From Antedon mediterranea (lineage: Eukaryota > Echinodermata > Crinoidea > Comatulida > Antedonidae): a DNA stretch of 64,000 bases. The notes beneath the pieces are model-generated. The model had not been told where the DNA came from. It saw only the letters and a list, made by a program, of their open reading frames with translations, and ran no database searches. Where the stretch lies: contig NC_092674.1 in the NCBI RefSeq assembly GCF_964355755.1, positions 12,963,001 to 13,027,000 on the forward strand, given 5' to 3'. Positions within the stretch are counted from its first letter, which is position 1. Every line of letters begins with the position of its first letter. Below, piece after piece: positions 45,655-63,021 of this stretch. The position numbers and the translations under genes were made by a program.

Positions 45655-46580
45655 TTAGATAAACTTGAAGTTGCAAGATTGAAGGAATTCAATTTAAGTG
45701 CTGGTGTAATACAGATATGGTGGAGGAAAATCCTGGCAACCAAAAGTAAACAAGAGGTATTGATTGTAATAGTGTTTTGACAAATATCTTGCAGGCATCA
45801 TGCTGTTACCAAACCAAGCCACAGAAGGCTATTTTAACATTGAATTACATCTTAACTTTTATTCATTTTAAAATTTTTATAATTAAACTAAATGTGTTTA
45901 TGTACTGTTAGATGCTCAGTCACTGATTGATATGTTGTAGGTTTTAGAGGCTGGAAGGTGAGAGAAGATGTAAAGAAACGACATGAGGCAGCACGTGTCA
46001 TACACTATGCTATGATGCTGAGTCACTTATTAGAATTGATGTGTTGTATGTTTTAGAGGCTGGAAGGTGAGAGAAGATGTAAAGAGACGACATGAGGCAG
46101 CACGTGTCATACAGTATGCTATGAGTGGATATTCAATTCGTTTACATCAACGCAAGTTAGAGGAACAACTAAATGAAGTAGATTCAGACGAGGTAGGCCT
46201 TTACTTAAAACTCTCAATTCTCAATCTACGCTGCACCAACATACTTTACCAAGTGAAGTATGTTCCTTCATCCTCATGTACTTTAATGATGTTGAATTAA
46301 CACATCATCATTGATATGTATTGAGTTATAAAACTAAAAATGTTGAATCGAGAATATTTAATTTACTGAGAGATCAGTTAATTTTTAACTCATGAAATAT
46401 TCTCACTATTCAAATCATAAACATTTAGTTTATGGTGTTTATACCAATCTAATACTTTTTTTTTCTTTATACAATTTAACATTTATTTTTACCACTTAGC
46501 TGATTTGCTGAGCACCTGAATATAAAACGTGTTACAGAAGAGAAGCCTGTAAATCAAGGAACCATCATTAACAAGTTTGT
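45655..46580 (+). CDS. IQ-motif protein, partial exon set
   Basis: Likely exons: 45655-45756 (AGVIQIWWRKILATKSKQE), a second block up to 46192 (GWKVREDVKRRHEAARVIQ, then YSIRLHQRKLEEQLNE) and perhaps 46513-46580 (HLNIKRVTEEKPVNQGTIIN). VIQ..WR and the basic repeats resemble calmodulin-binding IQ motifs, as in myosin necks or ciliary IQ proteins. The phase does not match between the first two exons, and the second is partly duplicated in tandem, so the model is incomplete or broken. No start codon or stop is assigned. Confidence 0.45.
45905..46130 (+). repeat. ~110-bp tandem duplication covering part of an IQ exon
   Basis: GAGGCTGGAAGGTGAGAGAA and the following bases occur at about 45947 and 46056, with upstream CAGTCACTGATTGATATGTTG versus a similar copy. 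The first copy has an acceptor-like TTGTAG; the second has TTGTATG there. Continuous reading from the first copy meets TAG before the second. Confidence 0.75.
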
Positions 46581-49598: not shown

Positions 49599-49870
49599 TC
49601 ACATCTCTTTCTTGGTTTCTAGTAATTCTACAATATCCATTCTCTCAACTGCTCTCAAGGCTTTTACTACTTCCTCTTGTTGTTTCACATCCCTTCCTTG
49701 CTTACATCGCCATTGTACAAGTGATTCCATTGTTGCTTCTACAGTCAGCGCTGAAAACCTTCTCTCAGTTTGTGATAGCTCAACATCAGCAATACCAAGA
49801 TGCCTACAGAAATTCTTCCAATCTGTCATCTTCTCAGATATTATCAGGAAGTCCAAGTCTGTTAAGCATC
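49599..49870 (-). CDS. Roc-COR gene last exon (death domain 4)
   Basis: DWKNFCRHLGIADVELSQTE and SLVQWRCKQG follow the death-domain pattern (W..LA..LG..., then L..W), then VVKALRAVERMDIVELLE and TGA. Confidence 0.93.
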
Positions 49871-52800
49871 CTGTAAAAACACATTTAATTGACTTCATTA
49901 AATAAAATACATTTGGTTGTTTTTCTTCAAACATTCAGGTGCTGAAATTAAGCAACATTTCTGGAATGTAACATTCTATTTGTATTGGAAGAAATCATGA
50001 ATAAAGCATGAGCCTAATTACTAATTATTTACTTATTATTTTATTCTTAGAATTACAAGATAGCTAACCTATTTCCTGAATACAAGAGAACTTAACCCTC
50101 GAAAATATACAAAATGTGTCCTTACGTAAAATACATATTGCACAATTTCATCACAACAACATAAGTTACATAAATATTTGATCGTACCCCTGAAAAATGG
50201 GTCAATATTGGATGTAGTTTACTGATTGGAGGCATCTGTATGGCCAGTAAAAATACACTTGTTTTATTGGTGATGAATGGGAAGGCATGGATCATTCTCT
50301 TTTATGTTTTTTCAGATGGGTGTTCATTTTAGACACAGTTTTGTTTGTTTGTTTTTATATATCTAGGCAAATTTCCAAGGATAACCATAAGCGAATTCAA
50401 TCACTATCCTTCTTAAGGTGGCAATCCCATTCACAAGACAAACATATACACAAGATGCTCTACATAAACGAAGTCTTATTACAAGTCTTTGGGGGTGGAG
50501 TTGTATTTGTCATTATAAAACATCCTGACATATGACAGGAATTGAACCCAGGAGCCATGAATTGGTAGCCAAATTAGCTTAATCACGTTTAAAACATTTC
50601 TTGTTTATCAAATGATTGCTGATGACAATAAAGAGTCAAATCACTAATTATATCTACAGTAGTATCAGGTATACATATAACATTTGTTTTTAATAACAAT
50701 CATTACCCACCTTGTCCTGATTGGTCTGTAAACACTGCAACTTCTAAACTGACATCATCTTTGTATTCATATCTTGTACACAGGCTATCAGCTAAATCAA
50801 CACGTCCCTGTTGTTTAAAAGCCTTGATCATTGTAGGTAGCTGATGTGCTTCTGCATGTTGACAGCTATTTCTCCATTGGACCAATACCTCCATTATGGC
50901 ATCTTCTACATGTTTGTTTTTGTCTGCAATTTTATTAACGTTGTCCCATTTGATTCCAAGTCGCACTGCTAGTCTTCTCCAACTTTGATTTAAATTGTCA
51001 CAGATGAATAAGAGATCTTGATCATCAAAAAAAGCTGTGAAATAATAAAAGCAATAAGGTAATGCGTTCTGTTTCAATTAAATTCAACTCCCTATTCCAT
51101 GCAATATTTATTTCGGAATCTCTCGTCCATAGAAAATAAACATAATTTTGTATCAATTAACACATTTAAATAAAAATATGATTATCAGAATATTTTTTTT
51201 TAAAGCATTCATGAGCAAGATTTTATAACACACCTAAGATTCTTAATTTAATTTGAGAATTGCGAGTCATATTTTATTTAAATGTGCTATTGCTCTCTTA
51301 ATGATGCCATTGAGAGTGCAATGTTGTTATATGTGCACACAAGTACCTGCATTTTGCATGTTCATTTTTGTTACACGGTGAGTGAGCAACCACATGTTAC
51401 AAGAGGCGAGGCTATTGTTGCCTCTCTTTTTATCAAAAGTAGGTGTATACTCATAAACATTCATTACTTGTATACTATTTAATGGCACGAATCATTACAA
51501 TATAAAATGCATTATACCTGAATGTTTGATAAACTTGTGTATTTCATTGTCAACATATTTGTGAAACAGCAGATCAGCAAGATCATTACGACCATGTTGT
51601 CTTAGTGCAGTACACAATACTTGTTGCTGATTAAGGTCACTACCAATGTTTCTCCTCCAATGTTTCAGCATCTTTGCTGTAGCTTTATCTGTTTGCTTTT
51701 CATTATCTAAAATAGTATTCACTTTAGACCATGTAAGCCCCAAACGAACACCAAATCGTCTGCAGGAAAGATCCATCTCTCTGGACACTTTGTCAATAGT
51801 TAGGTCATCCACATAGTCTATATCGAAAAACAAAATTTTATTTCTATTGTGTTTTTAATCCTTCACAATAGTAACTAAACATAATAATTATTTTATCATA
51901 ATATATACCTTTGTTATCCTTGACATCTGACATCCTCCTTCGTTTACTAGATCCCTTAACTCGTGATTTTTTTAAAGATGTTTTCCCCTTCGTCATTTTA
52001 TGAGCCTTAGCAACAGTATCATCATCATCAGTATCAGATTCTGGATCTATGTTCTTCTGTCTACCAGCTTCTTTTGAGGTAGAAGCTACAATGACAATAA
52101 AAAAACAAAATAGTGATAAAGTTAAACCAAGATGTAAAATTGCTTGTTTTGTATTGTTATTTTATGTAGTATTACTCTTTTAGTATAATAATAATCATAT
52201 TGGTTATTTATGAATGTATTAGTTTGGCAATTCTGGAATTAAATTTAAAAATGATGATCTTCAAAAATATACACTAATGATAATTTCTGTATTAGCTGAA
52301 CAGTTTTTTATTTTCAATACTTTACCAGCAACTTGTTGACATACAGTATATTGCGCTGTATATTGTTGATATTAATTTATATCTGTGAAAGTCAGTTGCA
52401 TTCAACTATCGCATGGTTTAAACATTAAAAACCTAGAATTGTAGTGTACGATGATGATGATAATCATTCATAATACATCTTTTACCATCAACCGCACCTT
52501 TGTTATCCTTCTTGGAGGAAAAGAATCTCTTCACTTTACGAGTGATTCTTTGAAGTCTTGAAGTAGAAGCTTGTGCATTGCTGTGACCATCACTGTCAGA
52601 ATCTAGAGCTATGCTTTGTTTTGTACTATCTTTCGATTCAGATGCTAAACAAAAATAAATCGAAAAGCAACATTTTACAAACTGTATAACTTAGATGTAC
52701 ATCTTCAATAATACTGTTTTTTTTTAATTCTGTGGATTATCATAAACTAGATGGCACGCTCGCTTCGCTCGCGTACCATCTAGGTCGTGCCCACAGATGG

Positions 52801-55800
52801 TTCTCGAATACACAGTATTTCCAGCGAGAAAAAAAATGGAGATTTCAAATGTACGTACCGCAGGACTATAATACATTGTCGTTTACAGAAACGAATAAAT
52901 ATACACAATTATTTATGTAGTCAACCAAAATTAGCACCCTGGGAATTACTTCCGAGAGAGAAACAAAATGAGTCAAATTTTGTTATTTGGACTCATTTAA
53001 ACAAACCCAATTTGTGTTTTGTATGTAACATTAAGAGTTGAGGGATGGGGGAAGAAGATAGGTACAAAGAGGAAACATTTTAAAATATATTCTTATCCAC
53101 TCAGTAACGAAATATTGTTTTAAATGTGTTATAGGCCTATAAATAATATACCACTAAATACAGTAAAACATTTACGATTTAATACGGTACTTTGTTAAAA
53201 CTCTCACTGTCATAGTCGATTGAAATAGTAAAGTACATGTAACGATACACCACTACGACGTTTATATATTTTTAAATTATTAATTAATACAAACGTTGAG
53301 AAGCAACTGTCAGTAATAACGTTAATTTATTTGTATATTATATGTTTATAATCTAACAGTAGGGCCTACCCACACTCACAGTAATAAAGTTTATTTGTAT
53401 ATATTTTTATATTACATCTAACAGTACCAACACTCACAGTAAGAAATTTGCGATTCAAATTGCGATCAAAAGTGGTTAATACCTTAACAGTATTGTACAG
53501 CATTGCAATACTATTTATGTTTATTCTCCAAGGGGGCCCATAAATCTAAATCTATACCTCTATGGTTAAACCAAATAATTTGGAATGTTTATTTGTATAT
53601 TATATGTTTATAATCTAACAGTAGGGCCTACCCACACTCACAGTAATAAAGTTTATTTGTATATATTTTTATATTACATCTAACAGTACCAACACTCACA
53701 GTAAGAAATTTGCGATTCAAATTGCGATCAAAAGTGGTTAATACCTTAACAGTATTGTACAGCATTGCAATACTATTTATGTTTATTCTCCAAGGGGGTC
53801 CATAAATCTAAACCTCTATGGTTAAACCAAATAATTTGGAATGTTCCATTCATCACAAATCAATACATTTGTAAAAACGTATATTAAATGTATCAAAATA
53901 GTATTTTTTAAAGAAAATCGGCCTGTCTTCAACATTATGATGCTGTACTCGAACTGTTCAACCGGTTTTCAGCTATTAAAAACAATTATCGTAGGAGGAG
54001 ATAGGAAAATGCGAAGCCTCCTCGCATTTTTGTGGCGGGTATTTTTCAAGATGAACATCCATTAGACAGTGTATACCACGATCGGAAAACACCCCTATTT
54101 GGGACAAATCGTTGAACCTAAATTCGTTTTAATCGTCAATAACTAATTATCTAACTTAATTTAATTAGTAAACAGGGTTACATCAGGTGGTTAAAATCAG
54201 TACCGAAAGTACGAACCAACTTTATATACCATCGAGTAAAAATTCTAGAAGTAAGGCGCGATTTACCGAATTTTGCCCTTACGTAAATTTATATATAGAT
54301 GATGATGACACAGAATTATTATAAAAATCTAAAAAAAAGTTTTTTTTTTCTACTTTTCTACATTTTATGGCATTTATATAATAGTTGAAAGATTGTAACT
54401 TCTTATAATGAAGTAACATACAATTATTATTCATTTTTACATGAATGATGCAAATAAAATGTCTTATATCCATTAAGTATACTTAAATAAATAAAGAATA
54501 TATATATTTTTTATTTTCGAAATTCTTAACTTGAATCCTCATTTATTTTGTTTGGTTTAAGAATTTTTTTTTTTATTTTACTTCATCCTAAATTAAAAGT
54601 TTCACTGATGGATAATACACAAAACAAATCCTCTACCTTTTAGTACAATGTCTCCAAACAGATTACGATAACGTTTCACTTCCATTCCTCTGCTTCCACA
54701 TGGCAACACATCTTTGTCAAATTTGCGTACAACATGCATATGAGTGTGTTCACCTTTTGAGCCACACACACAAGGGATGTACATCTTTACTTTAACACCA
54801 CGTGCATTCTTCTCACTCAAAAAGTGCAATTCTTTTTCAAGAAATGTTAGTACCTATAAAATAGAATAATTTGATTTAGTTGATTATTTTGCTACCCACA
54901 ACAAAAAGTAGTATTTAAATAATTATACAAACTAAAAATTAGTAAATGGAGCAAAGAATGATAACATGTAAGCATGTTTCCGAATAGGATCACCAAAACA
55001 TATTCAAATACAAAATACATTATTATTTTACTATTAAGTGTACATTACAGTTTAAATAAAGTAATTATTAATTATTGTTTATTGTTTAATTTTCTTTAAT
55101 CATCAATATTGTTTATACTCTACATATGCAACTCATAAACATTATTTTACATTAACTTACGTTCTTACAGATGCTAGGTTTTGGATCATCATCTTCAGGA
55201 AGGCCAGCAGCATTCATCATGTCTGTTCTAACTATTGTTGTCTGCAATATCAAAAATCAATTTTTATTTTTATTCTTTTGACAATTGTTTCTCTTTAATT
55301 TTCATTAAAGCAATTGCCACTTAATCTATAATCTATATATAATCTATTATGATCTATATATATATAATATTATAAACTATAAAGATAAATGAAAAAAACA
55401 CCTTTTAATGTAGATAATTGCCATATTTTCACCGATTGAACAAGCATTTGCTTTTTATTTTAGTCTATTTCAATTTTACTGTTATTCTATTATGTTATAT
55501 CTGGAGGATATAACTGAAAATCTAAAAACTGATAATGTTTCTATTATAATTCTATCTGAGGCTGATATTTTCTCAGAGGTAATTAAACATTTATAGTTAT
55601 GTTCCTAAGATGATACTTTCTCAGATTTAGTTTTTAGTCTTATAACATCAATTTTATTAAGTCTACCTGAAACAAACGGCAATTGTTGATGGTAGCTACA
55701 TTTAGAACCACAAAATGATGGCCATCAATATGCAGTTCTACATGCTCATAAGACAATGTAGGCTCAACATCTTCCATTTGAAATTCCTCAATAAATTTTG

Positions 55801-58800
55801 TTGTGACACGTTGGAAGAGATCATCTGGTAGGTAGCCATCAAAGTCATGAAATAGAGAAATAGCACGCTTCTCTTCATATTCAACAGCCTTTGTATCATC
55901 ACGTTGGGGCTTTAGGCGTGAAAGAACATAGAACGTTCGTTCAACATTCTATAGAAACAAAAATGGAACATGAGTAGTAGATGGAATATATTAAAAAATA
56001 ATTGAACTAAATATTTGAAATGAAATGTAAATACCTCTTTACTCCTTTTTTCACACATTAACCCAAAGGTTTGCATCAGAGACACAAAGAAGATAATCAT
56101 CTCAGCTGAATCATCCTTCCATATATGCCGCAGCAGTCTTTCATCTAGTTTACCCCCATTTAAATTTCTCCAAAGCTGTTTCATAGATGGCTAAAAAAAT
56201 ATAAAAGCACAAGTGTAATTTGTCAATGCAACAAAGTAATTACTGTTCTTCTGTTCAGTAAAACCTCACCTTTGGGAAAACCTTATTGAAACTTAATTAC
56301 TTGTGCAATGAATGAGGTTAATATCACAGATAACATCTATTAAGGGGACACTTTGTTGGGTCTTCCCTTAATGGGAGTGCTACACTAATACGTTTACAAG
56401 CATATATTTTAGTATTAGAATATAATAGAATTAATGAGGTATAATTTCGTTCTCTGTGTGGCAGATATTACATGTTTACAGCTAAATCCTAAATGTTTAC
56501 ATATGATATTCACCAATGACTGACACCACTCAAAGAAGTGAAGTTTGCAAACCTGAAGGCTGGGATCTATAACTGTGATGATTGTTTTAAACTTGTCAAC
56601 TACTCCCATCAAATCTATAACAATTTTTTCTTTGAGGATCTTGTCATCTGGGTAGAACAGAATCTCACCGATGTCGTGCAAATACTCAAGAAACTGTTTT
56701 CTGTCAGTTATCTTACAACTAGCAAGTAAATCATTGATCTAAAAGGCAAATAAATATTATAATGAAAAATGTAACGAAAACAAAAATATTGAGTAATTAC
56801 AAACTGGTTTTCTGCTGATGTTATCAATCATTTCGTTAATGTTCAAAGGTTGTTTATATAGGACATAATACTTTATCATGCAAGGGTAGATTTGAAATCT
56901 GAAAGTTTCCTAACCAACAGTAAACTCAAGGTTTACCACTTACTTCAATAATTGTTATTGCCAAACAAAATGTTCATTTTGTTTTTGGCAAAATTGGTAC
57001 TAAAACAATTGCACCATTCCTGTTTGATACATATTTGTTGAAGATTCACCATAAACAGTCAATTAACACAGACAGCAAAGCAGGGATACTGTTAATGTTA
57101 CTATCAATAACAAGTTTTTTTTTCACTTTAACACCATTCGATGCAGCAATAAAAAGGGTTTAATGCTTTAATGTGATTTAAGAATAAACAAATGTAATGG
57201 ATGTTAAACACTTATTATTAAAACACATTATTCAATCAATTTTTTTTTATATAAATGTATCTATTCTAACCTGAGATATTGGTAGATACAGTTTGTCTTT
57301 TCGTAACTTTTGTATTTCCTGCAGTACTTGTAGCCATTTGATTGGCAAAGTAAGAATCATCATCTGGACTAATTTTTGTATTTGGAGAATGATTTTAGAA
57401 GCACCGCTCTTTTCAAATGATACACTGTTTTCAATGGTAAAGAGCTCTTCTTGATACACCATATCCTCAAATGGTTTTCCTTCCAGGGCTTTCCAAAGTT
57501 TTTTCTCTATTGCCTTTACCTAAAATAAATAACATCACATTGGAATTAAACGTATGTCATGGGAAAATTTAAAGGGTGCCGTACCAGCCAAGACCCCACC
57601 CCCACCCCATTTGTAAACTGCAAGAAGTCTTTTATTTAATTTATGTCACGCATTTATGTACCCAGTGTACACTAGTATAATTATACCAATATAAGAAAAT
57701 GTGTGATAAATCATACATATTTGTATACCCTTTTATTTGTTTTATTATAGACCTAACAGATGGAACATTATTATCACAATGAAAGTGCACATACTGTAGT
57801 ATTTCATTTATGAAATAATCTTAGATTTTTACAAAAAAATATCATTTGAAATACTTTTAATCTTTAGCCTACATATATTTTTAATTGAAATTAAGGTAAG
57901 ATAATCATTTAATCATAAGCCAGCACAGTACAGTAGTATGTGCATGTCATGACAATGAAACAACTGTCCACCTGATTACATAATCGGGACTTTACGAAAC
58001 AGGGTGGTTAGTTTTCTGTGTTCGCTGGAGCGCAAAATTATAAACAAGACATAGCCATTTTATTAGTTACCCACCACGTGAAGACGACAACGATCGGTCA
58101 GAGAGAGAGAGAGACAACCATGTCTACTAGCCTACTAGACTATAATAGGGCTACTCTAGCTAGGGGACCTACCTAGGCTACTTACTAGATATGGGTGTAT
58201 TGATTTGGGTTTATGGCCTAAAAGCTAGAACAGCATTATCTCTAGTCTCCCTCCCCTGTCTCACGGGGGCCCTATTGAATCTCTTTGGCTTGGTGGTACG
58301 ACATATGCTTTCTAGCTAGGGACCTTGCAAACAAACGCCGTGCAAAATGTATTACACAGCAGCAATTTTAATCAAAAAACAATGTTATTTCGTTAAACAA
58401 TTAAATTAGAAGTGAAAATTACACTTTAAGTGTTTTGAACTGTATATTTAAGGTTATATATACTAGTTGTATTTCTAATCGTTCTTCATGAGCACCTAAT
58501 AGTATGAGCATGACATGATGTATAAAACAATCGCCCACCTGATTACACAATATATGGTTGCCAATGTTAGGGATGAAACTACATATTGTTTCCAATGAAT
58601 CAATTACAATATACAATTTTGTAATGTTTAATGAAACAAAATATGATAACATATGTACCATTTGTTGTCTTTCTTGTTCAGTTTTACCAAGGCTCTCATA
58701 ATGTGTACCAATCAGCATTATCTTGTTTTTCTGTCCTGTTCTTACGTTTACAAAAACTGAACGAATCCAAAACAGAATGAACTCAAGATTTGTCATTCGA

Positions 58801-61800
58801 TGTTCATACATTTTTCCCTAAATCACAAAGAAAATGAACAAAATTTTCATTTTAAATTCTTAAACAGGTAGTTTGAAAACATTGTGGAAAATTATCTTAT
58901 AATTGTGGTAATAATAGCAGCACACATTTATATAGAAAAATAACACTATCATGGAAATGGAAATAACAACAATCATGTATCAGGCCTCTGCTATTTGCAC
59001 AGTTTTTGTTAAGGTAAATGAAGATTTAGATTTTAAGATTTATATATATTTTTATATGGTATAGTTTATTCCATTCTGTAAGGGGCGGGTTTCCCGCTGT
59101 TGAATGAGTTTGAATAAAAATAAAATAAAATAAGAAATAAACATTTTATGTATATTCAAGTACATAGAACATTTGAAATTTGTAAAATCTACTTACAGTT
59201 GTTGGATCACGAACTTTAGCTGGGGCATCAAGATCTTGATTCAGGTTAAATACCACACATACAACAGCATAAGACACCATGAATATCTATTAAACATAAT
59301 CATAATTGTCAGTATTAAAAACCGTTTATACACATGTGCCAGTATACTGGCACAACTAAATATTTGATACTTATTTTTTTCCTCACAAACTGCATGTTCA
59401 TCTTGGAAACATTTACAATCTTAAACATTGGTTTAATAAATAATGAATGTTTTATTATTGCATTCTCTCTCCCTCCGGTGATCAGTGATTGGCTATTCTG
59501 GCATGATAATATATTACTACTACTGTAGTATTGTAACAGGAGGCATACTAAATTAAAGGCAAAACTAAGAAATTAGGTAAATCAATACAATTTACCCGTT
59601 GTATCACATGATATATAGGCTGCCCTCCAAAGTCCCAGAGGTTCATAACAAACTTGTTGCTGTCCACTTTAGAGTCACCACCTATTCTTACAGAGCGAAG
59701 TTGGCTTTCAACTTTGTTCACGACCACTTTAGGAATTTTTGGTCTATCTTTTAGTTTTTCTTCATACAGTGGTTCTGTTGTGATAAAATAATAATACATT
59801 TAATACAACAGTTTAATTCAATATCATTTCAACATTTAAAAATAAAATAGAAATCCATCATAATAAAGCTATTCCTTTTTACTTAAATCTTGATGATTGT
59901 AAAAACAGACAAGACAGATGGAGGCAGGCTAAGAATATAGAGCAGGATGACACTATAACTGTTTTGTTAAAAGAAAAGGTATTTCCAATGCAATATTTAA
60001 GCATTCTAAACCTTATCCTTTCCAATCAATGGTTTAGTGATGAGTTTATTTAACCATATTGTACTGCAAGTTGAATAGATTACACAGCAGTGTCATACAA
60101 TATACAAATACTAGTATTGACTGTCAAAGTTACTTTCAAGATAATATGTTTATTAGCATACACTGATGATTATGATTAAATTTCCGCTCCTTAAATCATT
60201 TCAATATTTCTGATATCATTACTATGTATGAACAGCACAATCAACCACATTTCAAAATAAATATTTACCCTCCTTTTGTGGGCTTGGCATGGAATTTGAA
60301 CTTTTTGAGGTTTCAGCAAATTTGGCTTCCTGTTTTGATGTTGATACTCCTGTGGGATTTTTCTCTTTCTCATGTCTACTTTCTGAAAAATGTGTTGATA
60401 TAATTAAATATGATGCTATCTTGTAATAAGGAGCATAATACATTAACATTCAATAACATTAGGCTTTATAATCAAATTAACTTGACAAGAATTAAAGTTT
60501 ACAGTAATGAATCTTTTTTTTTTTATAAACATGTCTTTTTATATTAAATTGTATATGTATTTTCTAAAATCATTTTTGTACCAATTTGTGGTTTTGTATT
60601 GTTCAATTTATATAGACTACTTTTTTTATACAGTTAAACATGTTTTACAGCAGATTACAATAACAATAAAGACATTTTAACTAAATTTGAATTAACTGTA
60701 ATTAACATCTTTTACCAGATTTGGTTTTCTCCTTTGATGGTCCTGCTCTTGGTGTGTATCCTTCTGTATAGCGTGGACTTTTCAACATTTGTTTAACTGT
60801 GACATCAGTGACAGCATCCTGATACATGTCTGAAGCTTTTTAATAAAAAAAAGTGTTAATAAATTCACATTATATTATTTTTTACCCTGTTACATATTGG
60901 TTTTTAAAAGCATTGAAACCATTTTAATGTTGTTGTTGCAATAATTGATCCTCCTTGGTCAAAGTGGATAATTATTATATGATATTAAAATGGCATATTA
61001 CTTATTTGGTAAAAAAAATAATACAAAAACACATTGTGGCATGAAAAAGCATGTCACAGGGTGAATTTTAAAACATTTATTTTGGTTGTTTTTTAACAGC
61101 AACATGTATGTGAATAAAGTGAATACTTACAAATATCCTGCGTTGTTTCTTTCAACATTTGCTTGTTACTGGCATCTGGTGTACACACCGTTGTTTTAAC
61201 CATTGCATCTGTTATTATATGCAATGGATTAAACCTATGACAAATTACATTATATAATTATAAAAGAATGTTTGCATTAATAATCTAGAGAAACATAATT
61301 TGATGGTATACTGCAAATACATTGTTTTTACGTTGAATTATAATCTTATTTTAAACCCTATTTTGAGGTTCACAATATCCTGTTGAAAACAAATTGAAAG
61401 CATCTGTTAACGTTTCTATCAGTAACTTTCCACTTATCCTTACAGACAGTATAGACCCTCAACAATGTGTGTTTACAGGAACTATATGTGTACAGTTATA
61501 TACCAATCAAACAATAATACATCTACGCAATAAAATATATAGGACACTGTTCCCAACTGCAAGTAGCAAACAATCAATCAACAAAAAATAATATAATGTG
61601 CTTACTCTTTTCTTAAAAGAGAATTGATAGTAGAAGTTTTTCCAACATTCTCAAGTCCTACAAAAATAGTTCTTCCTTGATTAAACTCTGTTTGTCCTTC
61701 TTCAAGTGCATTTTGAAATGCTTTCACCGCATCAGGTCCTCTTGCCAATATCTCCTCTGGAACATGCATATCTTAAAATAAACAAAATCAATTACAGTAT

Positions 61801-63021
61801 AATTTCCTACTTTCATTTTTTCATGGAAATTCTGAAGATATTGGTATCTGAAATATATGCCTGTCATTGGCAGAAAATACAGTGCCAACTCACTAGGCGA
61901 ATTAAACAAGAAAACTAAGATCTAGAAAACTCAGATATATCCATTATTAATCAGAGGGATTTAAAAAATAGTGTATACCTTTATATAAATATTTCATTGC
62001 AGTGTTATAGATTAGGGTTTGCATAATTGTATTTATGTTTTGATTTAATTATTAAATTTACTATATTAGCTCAATATTTAACAGCGTGGTAACCTGAATA
62101 GCAGAATACAATCTGAATTTTCTAGTTATTTTCTAGAACTAGAAAATTCAGAAATATCTGAGATCCGAGTTTTCTAGACACCAATTAAACAGTGCATACA
62201 TTTATTATAATATTTATTATAATCTTTATCACAATTTTATTTTCTTTATTTATCCAAAAAAATTGTGAGAAATAGCATATTAACAGGAGTGCAGGAGATC
62301 ACAAGAATATTGGGAGATAACACTCCTACAATTATTGGGAAAGTTGAGAGGTCTGAGTCAGTCTGGAAGTTAGCATACATCCAGCTGTTTTCACTTACTT
62401 TCAATGTTATTTGCCAACTCTTTTTCATCAGATTTCATGAGCGCTTTAACAAGTTGCGAACGCTTGGACTCAGAAGTTGATAATTTCATGGCCCAAGCAT
62501 CCAGCATGTTATAAGTCATTTTATATTCATCATCTGGATTATCTTGTTTAAAATGATCGATTTCTGCCATGGTAAACTCAAGATTTACTGCTAGTTGTTT
62601 CCAATCAATAGCTGTTGTGGCTATGTTGATTAATTCTTTGGTTGTTATATCTAAATAAAATAAGATATTCTCATAATTTGTAAAACATTCAATGCGAAAG
62701 GGGATACATAGGCTATAACACAGTGTTCACAGCTCCAGCATGCCTAGTAAGATGTTTGTCTCCAAATCACTGTGCATATGGTTTAATTGATTCTTTGCTG
62801 AAATATTTTCAGGAAATGTTATCAACAACTTTGCTACTGACAAATGGCAAACGCTTTCATTTTTTAAAAAACACACACACAAACCCCCTCACATTTCAGC
62901 CAAACTTCCAATATGAAAAAGCACAGCAAATCATTGTAAACTGTACCTCTAGTATAGTATAAAGGTTTTTGAAGAATATTCATACCTGATGATGTGATAT
63001 CTATGAATGGTAAAGGTCCGC
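49599..63021 (-). CDS. Death domain / Roc-COR GTPase / triple death domain protein (20 exons, N-terminus missing)
   Basis: Probable GTP-binding signalling adaptor of the ROCO superfamily, in which death domains would recruit apoptosis or innate-immunity partners (family inference). At least 1202 residues; numbering starts at the first full codon visible. Order: death domain 12-93; Roc with P-loop GLENVGKTS (134-142), WDFGGQ (310-315) and GTHYE (390-394); COR about 400-796; charged linker 797-904 with KKSRVKGSSKRRR; death domains about 905-995, 1005-1095 and 1113-1202; stop TGA at 49599-49601. Exons (5' to 3'): 63021-62986, 62650-62399, 61771-61606, 61234-61131, 60835-60716, 60382-60269, 59774-59596, 59286-59197, 58817-58659, 57519-57271, 56738-56553, 56190-56035, 55948-55667, 55241-55161, 54853-54637, 52644-52498, 52085-51909, 51817-51518, 51034-50711, 49870-49599. 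All junctions are GT-AG and in frame. Confidence 0.93.
50200..50575. repeat. Dispersed repeat with tRNA-like B box
   Basis: 50200-50320 matches 47680-47800. Further on, GGGTTCAATTCCTGTCATATG on the minus strand (about 50516-50536) resembles a tRNA T-arm. In the last intron of the Roc-COR gene. Confidence 0.55.
50711..51034 (-). CDS. Roc-COR gene exon 19 (death domain 3)
   Basis: WRRLAVRLGIKWDNVNKI, VLVQWRNSC and FKQQGRVDLADSL: a complete death domain on a single exon. Confidence 0.95.
51518..51817 (-). CDS. Roc-COR gene exon 18 (death domain 2)
   Basis: CRRFGVRLGLTWSKVNTIL, MLKHWRRNIG and LRQHGRNDLADLLFHKY. Closely parallels exon 19, so the two arose by exon duplication. Confidence 0.95.
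51909..52085 (-). CDS. Roc-COR gene exon 17 (charged linker)
   Basis: Acidic PESDTDDDD followed by basic KKSRVKGSSKRRRMSD, a plausible nuclear localisation signal; ends VKDNK. Confidence 0.88.
52498..52644 (-). CDS. Roc-COR gene exon 16 (charged linker)
   Basis: LDSDSDGHSN, then RKVKRFFSSKKDNK. Same phase, acidic-then-basic layout and DNK ending as exon 17, suggesting duplication. Confidence 0.88.
52747..54299 (-). mobile_element. Non-autonomous Helitron, copy 2
   Basis: Inverted relative of 25814-28043. On the minus strand it runs from TCTATATATAAATTTACGTA (preceded by A) to the hairpin (GATGGTACGC...GCGTGCCATC) and CTAG followed by T. The terminal ~460 bp at the 5' end and ~520 bp at the 3' end match copy 1; the middle differs and has its own 262-bp tandem duplication (53331 and 53593). 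It is inserted in the 2-kb intron between Roc-COR exons 15 and 16, in that gene's orientation. Confidence 0.88.
53331..53815. repeat. 262-bp direct duplication inside Helitron copy 2
   Basis: TTGTATATTATATGTTTATA, then AGTAGGGCCTACCCACACTC, and later CTCCAAGGGGG, recur 262 bp apart with few changes. Confidence 0.85.
54637..54853 (-). CDS. Roc-COR gene exon 15 (end of COR)
   Basis: KMYIPCVCGSKGEHTHMHVV and VLPCGSRGMEVKRYRNLFGD: a cysteine/histidine-rich end as in other ROCO C-terminal COR regions. Confidence 0.9.
55161..55241 (-). CDS. Roc-COR gene exon 14 (COR)
   Basis: TTIVRTDMMNAAGLPEDDD then PSICKN, 27 codons in phase 0. Confidence 0.88.
55667..55948 (-). CDS. Roc-COR gene exon 13 (COR-B)
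   Basis: ISLFHDFDGYLPDDLFQRV matches the 'F.GFLP.GLF.RL' motif of COR domains. Confidence 0.93.
56035..56190 (-). CDS. Roc-COR gene exon 12 (COR-A)
   Basis: LWRNLNGGKLDERLLRHIW, then FVSLMQTFGLMCEKR, the usual COR 'G.L....L..LW ... L....FGL' pattern. Confidence 0.93.
56553..56738 (-). CDS. Roc-COR gene exon 11 (COR-A)
   Basis: KQFLEYLHDIGEILFYPDD (COR 'FL..LHDLG.I.YF'), then VIDLMGVVDKFKTIIT. Confidence 0.95.
57271..57519 (-). CDS. Roc-COR gene exon 10 (Roc-COR junction)
   Basis: VKAIEKKLWKALEGKPFED, then LPIKWLQVLQEIQKLRKDK, matching the COR entry motif 'P..W..L...L'. Confidence 0.92.
57530..58650. other. Roc-COR intron 9, no gene
   Basis: 1.1-kb intron with a (GA)n run near 58100 and a CTAGCTAGG-type cluster near 58150. 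Confidence 0.6.
58659..58817 (-). CDS. Roc-COR gene exon 9 (Roc G4 motif)
   Basis: NKIMLIGTHYES: the nucleotide-specificity motif, usually THxD in ROCO proteins, here with Glu at the last position. Confidence 0.93.
59197..59286 (-). CDS. Roc-COR gene exon 8 (Roc)
   Basis: YAVVCVVFNLNQDLD, the hydrophobic strand after G3. 30 codons, phase 0. Confidence 0.93.
59596..59774 (-). CDS. Roc-COR gene exon 7 (Roc G3 motif)
   Basis: MNLWDFGGQPIYHVIQR with DFGGQ, the Roc-type switch II motif. Confidence 0.96.
60269..60382 (-). CDS. Roc-COR gene exon 6 (insert in Roc)
   Basis: ESRHEKEKNPTGVSTSKQ: Ser/Lys/Glu-rich, low complexity, likely disordered. Confidence 0.88.
60716..60835 (-). CDS. Roc-COR gene exon 5 (insert in Roc)
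   Basis: TDVTVKQMLKSPRY. The VKQMLK phrase echoes NKQMLKETT in exon 4, suggesting repeated or duplicated segments. Confidence 0.88.
61131..61234 (-). CDS. Roc-COR gene exon 4 (Roc switch I region)
   Basis: FNPLHIITDAMVKTTVC. The acceptor at 61235-61236 was chosen because it joins in frame with exon 3; a second AG 33 nt further in is out of frame. Confidence 0.92.
61606..61771 (-). CDS. Roc-COR gene exon 3 (P-loop)
   Basis: MHVPEEILARGPDAVKAFQN, then the Walker A motif GLENVGKTS. The first phrase ('PEEI..RGP.AV..Y..AL..G') is typical of invertebrate ROCO proteins. Confidence 0.96.
62399..62650 (-). CDS. Roc-COR gene exon 2 (death domain 1)
   Basis: ATTAIDWKQLAVNLEF, YNMLDAWAMKLS and LVKALMKSDEKELANNI give the six-helix death-domain pattern. 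Confidence 0.93.
62986..63021 (-). CDS. Roc-COR gene first visible exon (36 nt)
   Basis: Tiny exon GPLPFIDITSS with good acceptor and donor. It begins mid-codon, so more exons lie upstream. Supported mainly by its in-phase fit to exon 2. Confidence 0.7.

Follow-up and report, generated by a model that had tools for sequence, protein, structure and literature searches.

Can a single gene place several death domains on both sides of a ROCO GTPase core, and what would its product do? This question is raised by a locus of the crinoid Antedon mediterranea (assembly GCF_964355755.1; 354 Mb, 18 contigs). The stretch of DNA analysed, here called the window, is 64,000 nucleotides long and lies on contig NC_092674.1 (C5:12963001-13027000); C1, C3, C4, C7 and C9 denote other contigs of the same genome. 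A real gene lies in the window. It encodes a ROCO protein with ankyrin repeats and four death domains (DD1 to DD4), whose layout, taken from Pfam profiles and exon order, is ANK-DD1-Roc-COR-DD2-DD3-DD4. Far from being an isolated oddity, the gene belongs to a big family.

The gene was rebuilt by hand, by listing open frames and joining candidate exons through chosen splice sites. Its part within the window comprises 20 exons on the minus strand, from an acceptor at 63021 to a stop codon ending at 49599 (Table 1). All introns chosen are of the GT-AG type. Phase is kept at every junction, as an earlier note on this DNA, made from the sequence alone, had claimed. Three ankyrin-type exons lie upstream of the window (64155-64245, 65761-65877 and 70278-70373, numbering continued from the window), and the model so far has 23 exons (index 0-22) encoding a partial product of 1304 residues. 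The same note had asked whether the N-terminus would bring leucine-rich repeats (LRRs), a kinase or ankyrin repeats: ankyrin-type exons were found, and the start exon was not reached. No kinase motif was detected in 48 kb upstream (63-111 kb counted on) on either strand, in a search with three patterns over open frames of at least 40 residues, which short exons could escape; this supports and extends the note's remark that no kinase is seen.

Profile searches of the spliced product agreed with the rest of that description, namely the P-loop, DFGGQ and COR motifs, the four death domains and a GTPase core bracketed by them. In Pfam, the product matched Death (124.6 bits in four stretches, cut-off 22.6), Roc (32.8 bits, cut-off 27.0) and, directly after Roc, COR-A (56.9 bits, cut-off 35.3), the order that defines ROCO proteins; by these predicted features the product is a ROCO protein. 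Each death domain also exceeded the cut-off when scored singly (Table 1), with DD1 standing before Roc and DD2-DD4 after COR, and the first 102 residues matched Ank (23.5 bits, cut-off 21.1). The GTPase motifs are GLENVGKTST (G1), DFGGQ (G3) and a G4-like GTHYE, and GTP binding by this Roc domain is predicted as likely. Exons 15-17, in the position of COR-B, are without a Pfam match and recur in relatives and copies. The product resembles the DAPK group in its C-terminal death domain (DD4 closes the protein, with two further death domains before it) and in its ankyrin repeats before Roc, whose exons recur in a C3 relative; the kinase of that group was not found in this N-terminally incomplete model. 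A kinase after COR, as in the LRRK group (Roco group 2), is absent: COR is followed by a linker, three death domains and the stop codon. The predicted isoelectric points of DD1, DD2, DD3 and DD4 are 4.8, 9.3, 6.3 and 5.2, respectively.

By profile all four segments fall in the death domain superfamily, and the six-helix fold was modelled for DD3 only. A single-sequence model of DD3 was poor (predicted local distance difference test score, pLDDT, 55.6) and was replaced by one using the other three death domains of the window as alignment, which gave a six-helix bundle (mean pLDDT 82.6). With VIA-align, in which Z rows within 1 of each other count as tied, the top match was 2of5_H, a PIDD death domain (Z 14.5, 90 residues, root-mean-square deviation 1.7), followed by FADD (Z 13.5), RIPK1 (13.3) and RAIDD (13.1), with ankyrins at Z 11.4-12.5. 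A sequence search of the PDB with the product gave weak matches, PIDD death domains first (E 0.0014 and 0.0019) and then, weakly, an LRR protein over the Roc part.

Two near-identical copies of the window gene (copy A) lie further along C5 at a spacing of 440-450 kb, copy B at 13.45-13.47 Mb and copy C at 13.90-13.92 Mb, with 94-97% identity in long blocks. In copy B, 21 of the 23 exons were found (0 and 1 are missing); AG precedes all 21, GT follows all 20 that need a donor, and changes in exon length are multiples of three. Copy C has 22 of 23 (exon 0 is missing, and the last exon is cut by the end of the sequence piece examined), with one donor that is not GT in the aligned place. A script check of the exons recovered from copies B and C turned up no internal stop.

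Divergent relatives keep the same arrangement. Those on C7 (25.73-25.75 Mb) and C5 (22.06-22.08 Mb) retain exons 5, 6, 9-17 and 20-22 in the same order, with identities of 40-83% per exon, and one on C3 (19.45 Mb) retains exons 9, 10, 12-17 and 20-22; in all three, DD2-DD4 follow exon 17 at 0.5 to 6 kb. In a second C3 relative (20.97 Mb), all three ankyrin-type exons, the short linker and DD1 are present at 45-73% identity, the first 70 residues of DD1 lying within the piece compared. By hand count (70 matches, all 122 candidates scored), 14 loci carry DD2, DD3 and DD4 side by side; at one of them (C5:14.44-14.45 Mb) DD4 is 13 kb off and may belong to another copy. The pattern is more than chance, because the exons found in copy B keep their splice sites and change in length by threes, no internal stop was reported in those of copies B and C, and DD2-DD4 recur at these 14 loci. 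That the exons form one gene, as had been proposed, is supported by phase, by the splice sites kept in copies B and C and by the order of the core in relatives.

GTPase motifs were surveyed at nine loci, the window gene and eight others. The P-loop exon was found at four, all with GLExVGKTST, and the G3 exon at seven (DFGGQ in six, DFAGQ in one); among seven G4 rows, five read GTH, one ATH and one, from C9 (E 0.008), is doubtful. The exon stretches of divergent relatives aligned in this survey contain no stop.

Three features upstream of relatives were also recorded. At 22.9 Mb on C5 (L035, C5:22906901-22913000) an ankyrin-like frame, recognised by eye, precedes the P-loop exon; an ankyrin N-terminus may be common beyond the array at C5:13 Mb. 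Upstream of the C7 relative lies a DED-like exon of phase 1-1 (L024:5686-6219; C7:25.7307 Mb), which scores 29.3 bits (Pfam cut-off 35.9) and whose second half matches no family; standing 4.6 kb from the P-loop exon, it is a hint only of a further part of that gene. Upstream of a C1 relative (L027, C1:2345001-2353000), a frame resembles by eye the C-terminal part of an NLR with LRRs.

The size of the family was estimated from exon matches in the genome, made without annotation, some of which may be pseudogenes. The P-loop exon of the window gene has at least 114 matches at E <=0.001 among the best 150 of 160 candidates; 28 reach at least 68 bits, and the weak ones (28-43 bits) were not individually confirmed as ROCO. 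COR-A has at least 84 matches (best 150 of 188 candidates), seven of them above the curated cut-off exon by exon; a further family count covered the best 135 of 480 candidates. Merging P-loop and COR marks by distance, a rule that may split or join genes, gave about 153 loci, most of them on C3 (60) and C4 (38). A Death match lies within 15 kb of 42 of these loci, and 73 of 149 Death matches (best 150 of 179 candidates scored, near-copies included) fall no further than 15 kb from ROCO marks, the share of the genome so covered being 1.4%. A second large array of COR-A and P-loop matches occupies C4:16.0-19.7 Mb (L020); its flanking domains may be of another kind, because only one Death match (16.63 Mb) is listed there.

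All four death-domain exons begin in phase 1 and those of DD1-DD3 are of phase 1-1, so they can be duplicated or moved without a change of frame. In a tree of 24 death domains from this genome alone, near-copies among them, domains group by position and not by locus (DD2 98/99, DD4 95/98, DD1 87/80), with DD3 forming one group in 50% of bootstrap trees. A 100/100 branch places DD1 together with both C-terminal death domains of a C9-type ROCO, apart from DD2-DD4. On the grounds of this grouping and branch, DD2-DD4 seem to predate the divergence of the relatives, and DD2-DD4 and DD1 look like two different types. Between copies A and C, DD1-DD4 differ by 35 nonsynonymous and 8 synonymous changes, against 14 and 18 in the P-loop, Roc and COR (Fisher p 0.0012); the same comparison of copies B and C gave p 0.0003, and the two comparisons are not independent. 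These tests exclude the Roc insert and the linker; their first form was without DD4 and the second included it, with 55 of the 89 residues of DD4 of copy C lying within the piece compared. The ratio of nonsynonymous to synonymous substitution rates (dN/dS) between the copies is 0.34-0.57 overall and 0.11-0.21 in COR.

In the relative at C5:22 Mb, a caspase domain (two exons joined) is located one short intron before the P-loop exon. It matches the whole Pfam model Peptidase_C14 (E 9.4e-53), and compared with caspase-3 it has SDG for SHG and QASRT for QACRG, the catalytic His and Cys being absent. It belongs to a tandem array (C5:22.03-22.14 Mb, L030-L034) with eight caspase matches in about 100 kb around one ROCO gene. 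Five sisters in this array all stop 0 to 4 residues past LYFP or LYFS; four keep both catalytic residues, and in one Tyr replaces His. The caspase adjoining the ROCO gene has no stop at that place and carries an AG/GTGAGT donor in a phase that fits the P-loop exon. Read through, its frame continues for nine residues past LYFP before it stops, compared with 0 to 4 in the sisters, which weakens the idea of a lost stop. No caspase was seen beside any other ROCO copy (33 matches, all 37 candidates scored), and the pseudocaspase-ROCO fusion is accordingly presented as a candidate, seen once.

What might such a protein do? Our preferred reading, to which we give a probability of roughly 0.55, is that the window gene product is an intracellular, GTP-gated death-domain scaffold. 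Its Roc-COR part would cycle with GTP between a closed dimer and an open monomer, as in the Roco proteins studied so far, whose nucleotide-driven monomer-dimer cycle is described in the passages cited here (PMC6337361, PMC11052575). The closed form would mask DD1 and the tandem DD2-DD4, possibly against each other, because DD1 is acidic and DD2 basic. The ankyrin part would read a ligand or a damage cue, upon which the protein would open, and the four freed death domains could seed an oligomer resembling the PIDDosome or that of FADD, recruiting death-domain adaptors that would in turn engage caspases or NF-kB-type signalling. These last steps are modelled on known death-domain platforms. The coupling of NTPase switches to death-like adaptors is likewise described in the cited part of PMC8195603.

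The number of copies, the modular exons of phase 1 and death domains that change faster all suggest a choice of partner that varies among paralogues, as in a family of innate immune or cell-death receptors. The membership of the window gene in a large family suggests that a ROCO GTPase is the base of many of this animal's hubs for cell-death or immune signalling. A wider proposal is tentative, and we hold it at well below even odds: ROCO proteins would here be used as NLRs are elsewhere, with well over 100 Roc-COR genes, termini drawn from phase-1 death-fold exons (death domains, perhaps DED) and, in one relative, a cFLIP-like pseudocaspase decoy spliced to the core. Next to NACHT and Apaf-1, death-fold platforms would then have the GTPase as a third kind of NTPase switch.

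Other explanations of the same locus have to be weighed. The protein could be a static scaffold of the ankyrin type, with death domains that make protein-protein or cytoskeletal contacts and send no oligomerising death signal. The structural matches of DD3 do include the death domains of ankyrin-1, -B and -G (Z 12.5, 11.9 and 12.4), but PIDD, FADD, RIPK1 and RAIDD stand higher (Z 13.1-14.5, though rows within 1 are tied), and copy number and fast death-domain change fit signalling or recognition better than a static scaffold; we consider this explanation unlikely. It is quite unlikely, too, that kinase exons lie further upstream and the gene encodes a DAPK-group protein, kinase-ANK-DD-Roc-COR-DD-DD-DD, in which death domains and Roc control the kinase as in DAPK1. 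In the cited section of PMC6337361, Roc-COR with a C-terminal death domain and without LRRs marks the DAPK1 group. The ankyrin-type exons before Roc and the N-terminus that is not yet closed would suit such a protein, but the pattern search met no kinase motif over 63-111 kb on either strand. Moreover, DAPK1 is not known to have a death domain before Roc.

Two further explanations concern the locus itself. It may be a mostly decaying tandem duplicate without a function of its own, in a family whose count is inflated by duplication and assembly, as the near-identical copies 440-450 kb apart, a relative without some exons and counts based on exon matches and not on annotated genes might suggest. 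The absence of reported internal stops in copies B and C, the dN/dS values given above and the stop-free aligned exons of divergent relatives speak against decay, which we judge very unlikely. In the least probable explanation the locus consists of two adjacent genes, of which the first, a ROCO gene, ends with exon 17 and the second, with the triple death domain, comprises exons 18-22. Exons 17 and 18 are indeed separated by roughly 2 kb of intron carrying a high-copy element, and the exon 17 donor (GTAGAG) is weak; nevertheless the phase fits across this junction, copies B and C have the same donor and the linker exons, and in the C7, C5:22 Mb and C3:19.45 Mb relatives exon 17 is followed by DD2-DD4 at 0.5 to 6 kb.

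The GTP-gated scaffold remains the preferred reading, and several results weigh against it. The model has no start exon, the N-terminal end of the product is incomplete, and Ank falls under its cut-off when the whole protein is scored. The Roc domain is interrupted by a long insert, and its G4 motif reads THYE, not THxD. In the relative at C3:19.45 Mb, P-loop and G4 exons were not found in the stretch read, so either the GTPase is dispensable in some copies or this one is in decay. For a small helical bundle, Z values of 13-14 carry no more than moderate conviction, and Foldseek with the DD3 model returned nothing at E <=0.001, the best being death domains of FADD (E 0.0074) and PIDD (E 0.0078). 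For copies A and B, the balance of nonsynonymous and synonymous change does not differ between DD1-DD4 and Roc plus COR (p 0.31), DD4 is conserved, and the higher nonsynonymous change of the death domains may reflect relaxed constraint or gene conversion of the core as well as diversifying selection. The tree program also warned of long branches meeting (DD2 with DD4; C7 with C5:22 Mb).

Table 1. Features of the ROCO gene within the window (exons numbered by index; positions counted from the first letter of the window).
Feature	Position	Strand	Evidence
Exon 3, linker between ankyrin part and DD1, 36 nt, phase 1-1	62986..63021	-	present in copies B, C and C3:20.97 Mb
Exon 4, death domain DD1, phase 1-1	62399..62650	-	Pfam Death 44.2 bits
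Exon 5, Roc P-loop GLENVGKTST (G1)	61606..61771	-	splice model, genome matches, motif alignment
Exon 6, Roc, begins long insert before G3	61131..61234	-	splice model, copies
Exon 7, Roc insert	60716..60835	-	splice model, copies
Exon 8, Roc insert	60269..60382	-	splice model, copies
Exon 9, Roc G3 motif DFGGQ	59596..59774	-	splice model, Pfam, motif alignment
Exon 10, Roc	59197..59286	-	splice model, alignment across loci
Exon 11, Roc G4-like motif GTHYE	58659..58817	-	splice model, motif alignment
Exon 12, Roc end and COR-A start	57271..57519	-	Pfam COR-A residues 567-704
Exon 13, COR-A	56553..56738	-	splice model, Pfam
Exon 14, COR-A end	56035..56190	-	splice model, Pfam
Exon 15, after COR-A, probably C-terminal half of COR, without Pfam match	55667..55948	-	splice model, relatives
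Exon 16, after COR-A	55161..55241	-	splice model, relatives
Exon 17, after COR-A	54637..54853	-	splice model, relatives
Exon 18, basic serine-rich linker, phase 1-1	52498..52644	-	splice model, composition
Exon 19, basic linker, phase 1-1	51909..52085	-	splice model, composition
Exon 20, death domain DD2, phase 1-1	51518..51817	-	Pfam Death 39.6 bits
Exon 21, death domain DD3, phase 1-1	50711..51034	-	Pfam Death 41.7 bits; model; fold match
Exon 22, death domain DD4 and stop codon, starts in phase 1	49599..49870	-	Pfam Death 38.8 bits
High-copy repeat element, about 1555 bp, intron between exons 17 and 18, outside protein	52746..54300		copy search

The repeat element in the intron between exons 17 and 18 has 35 near full-length copies, spread over 11 contigs and 97-100% identical (of 6635 candidates, 38 were scored). 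It contains an internal stretch duplicated 262 bp apart, with the same open reading frames at 53366-53545 and 53628-53807. Upstream of the window, an intron between two ankyrin-type exons holds a 479-residue open frame (L003:5616-7055, minus strand) that by eye resembles a Tigger/pogo-type transposase. On the plus strand of the window, at 46040-46300, an open frame with an IQ-like segment (by eye) is probably an exon of a neighbouring gene.

Among known systems, DAPK1 shares with the window gene the ankyrin repeats before Roc; it differs in having a single death domain and, ahead of Roc-COR, a kinase, whereas in the window gene there are four death domains, the first of which precedes Roc, and a kinase was not found. 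As a member of Roco group 3, DAPK1 also has Roc-COR, a C-terminal death domain and no LRR in the account consulted (PMC6337361). In the basal animal Trichoplax adhaerens, at least 17 ROCO proteins are reported, some with CARD or death domains, and Roc-COR is joined to death-fold domains as in the window family; the part of that report cited here makes no mention of several death domains flanking Roc-COR, nor of a family so large (PMC4104024). Actiniarian NG1 and NG3 and Aplysia TLR/MyD88-like proteins likewise fuse Roc-COR to innate immune domains, with a death domain in NG3, but as described in the excerpts cited they are TIR-based and encoded by few genes (PMC5094078, PMC9334734). The brown alga Nemacystus decipiens has 47 ROCO genes, proposed as immune receptors, and human has four; this algal repertoire is large, as here, but consists of LRR-Roc-COR proteins without death domains in the text cited (PMC11378527), and it is the largest number in the literature compared, against at least 114 P-loop exon matches in A. 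mediterranea. No description of four death domains around Roc-COR was found in searches of the open-licence literature for this architecture, though one may already exist in print. If the scaffold reading is true, a GTPase of the LRRK2/DAPK1 family can switch multi-death-domain complexes and has been multiplied in an entire animal lineage. A GTPase bearing four death domains, together with close paralogues differing most in those domains, would then be natural constructs suited to asking how the nucleotide state of Roc-COR controls an attached signalling domain, a question open for LRRK2 and DAPK1. PIDD1, whose death domain is the top structural match of DD3, is the scaffold that seeds the caspase platform of the PIDDosome; unlike the window gene product, it has LRR, ZU5 and UPA parts with one death domain and is not known to contain a GTPase. 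cFLIP has the layout DED-DED-pseudocaspase, and in the C5:22 Mb relative, too, a caspase domain without catalytic His and Cys adjoins a gene with death-fold domains. Unlike cFLIP, this relative has a ROCO core and a triple death domain, and its candidate fusion, if true, would connect ROCO proteins directly with the control of caspases.

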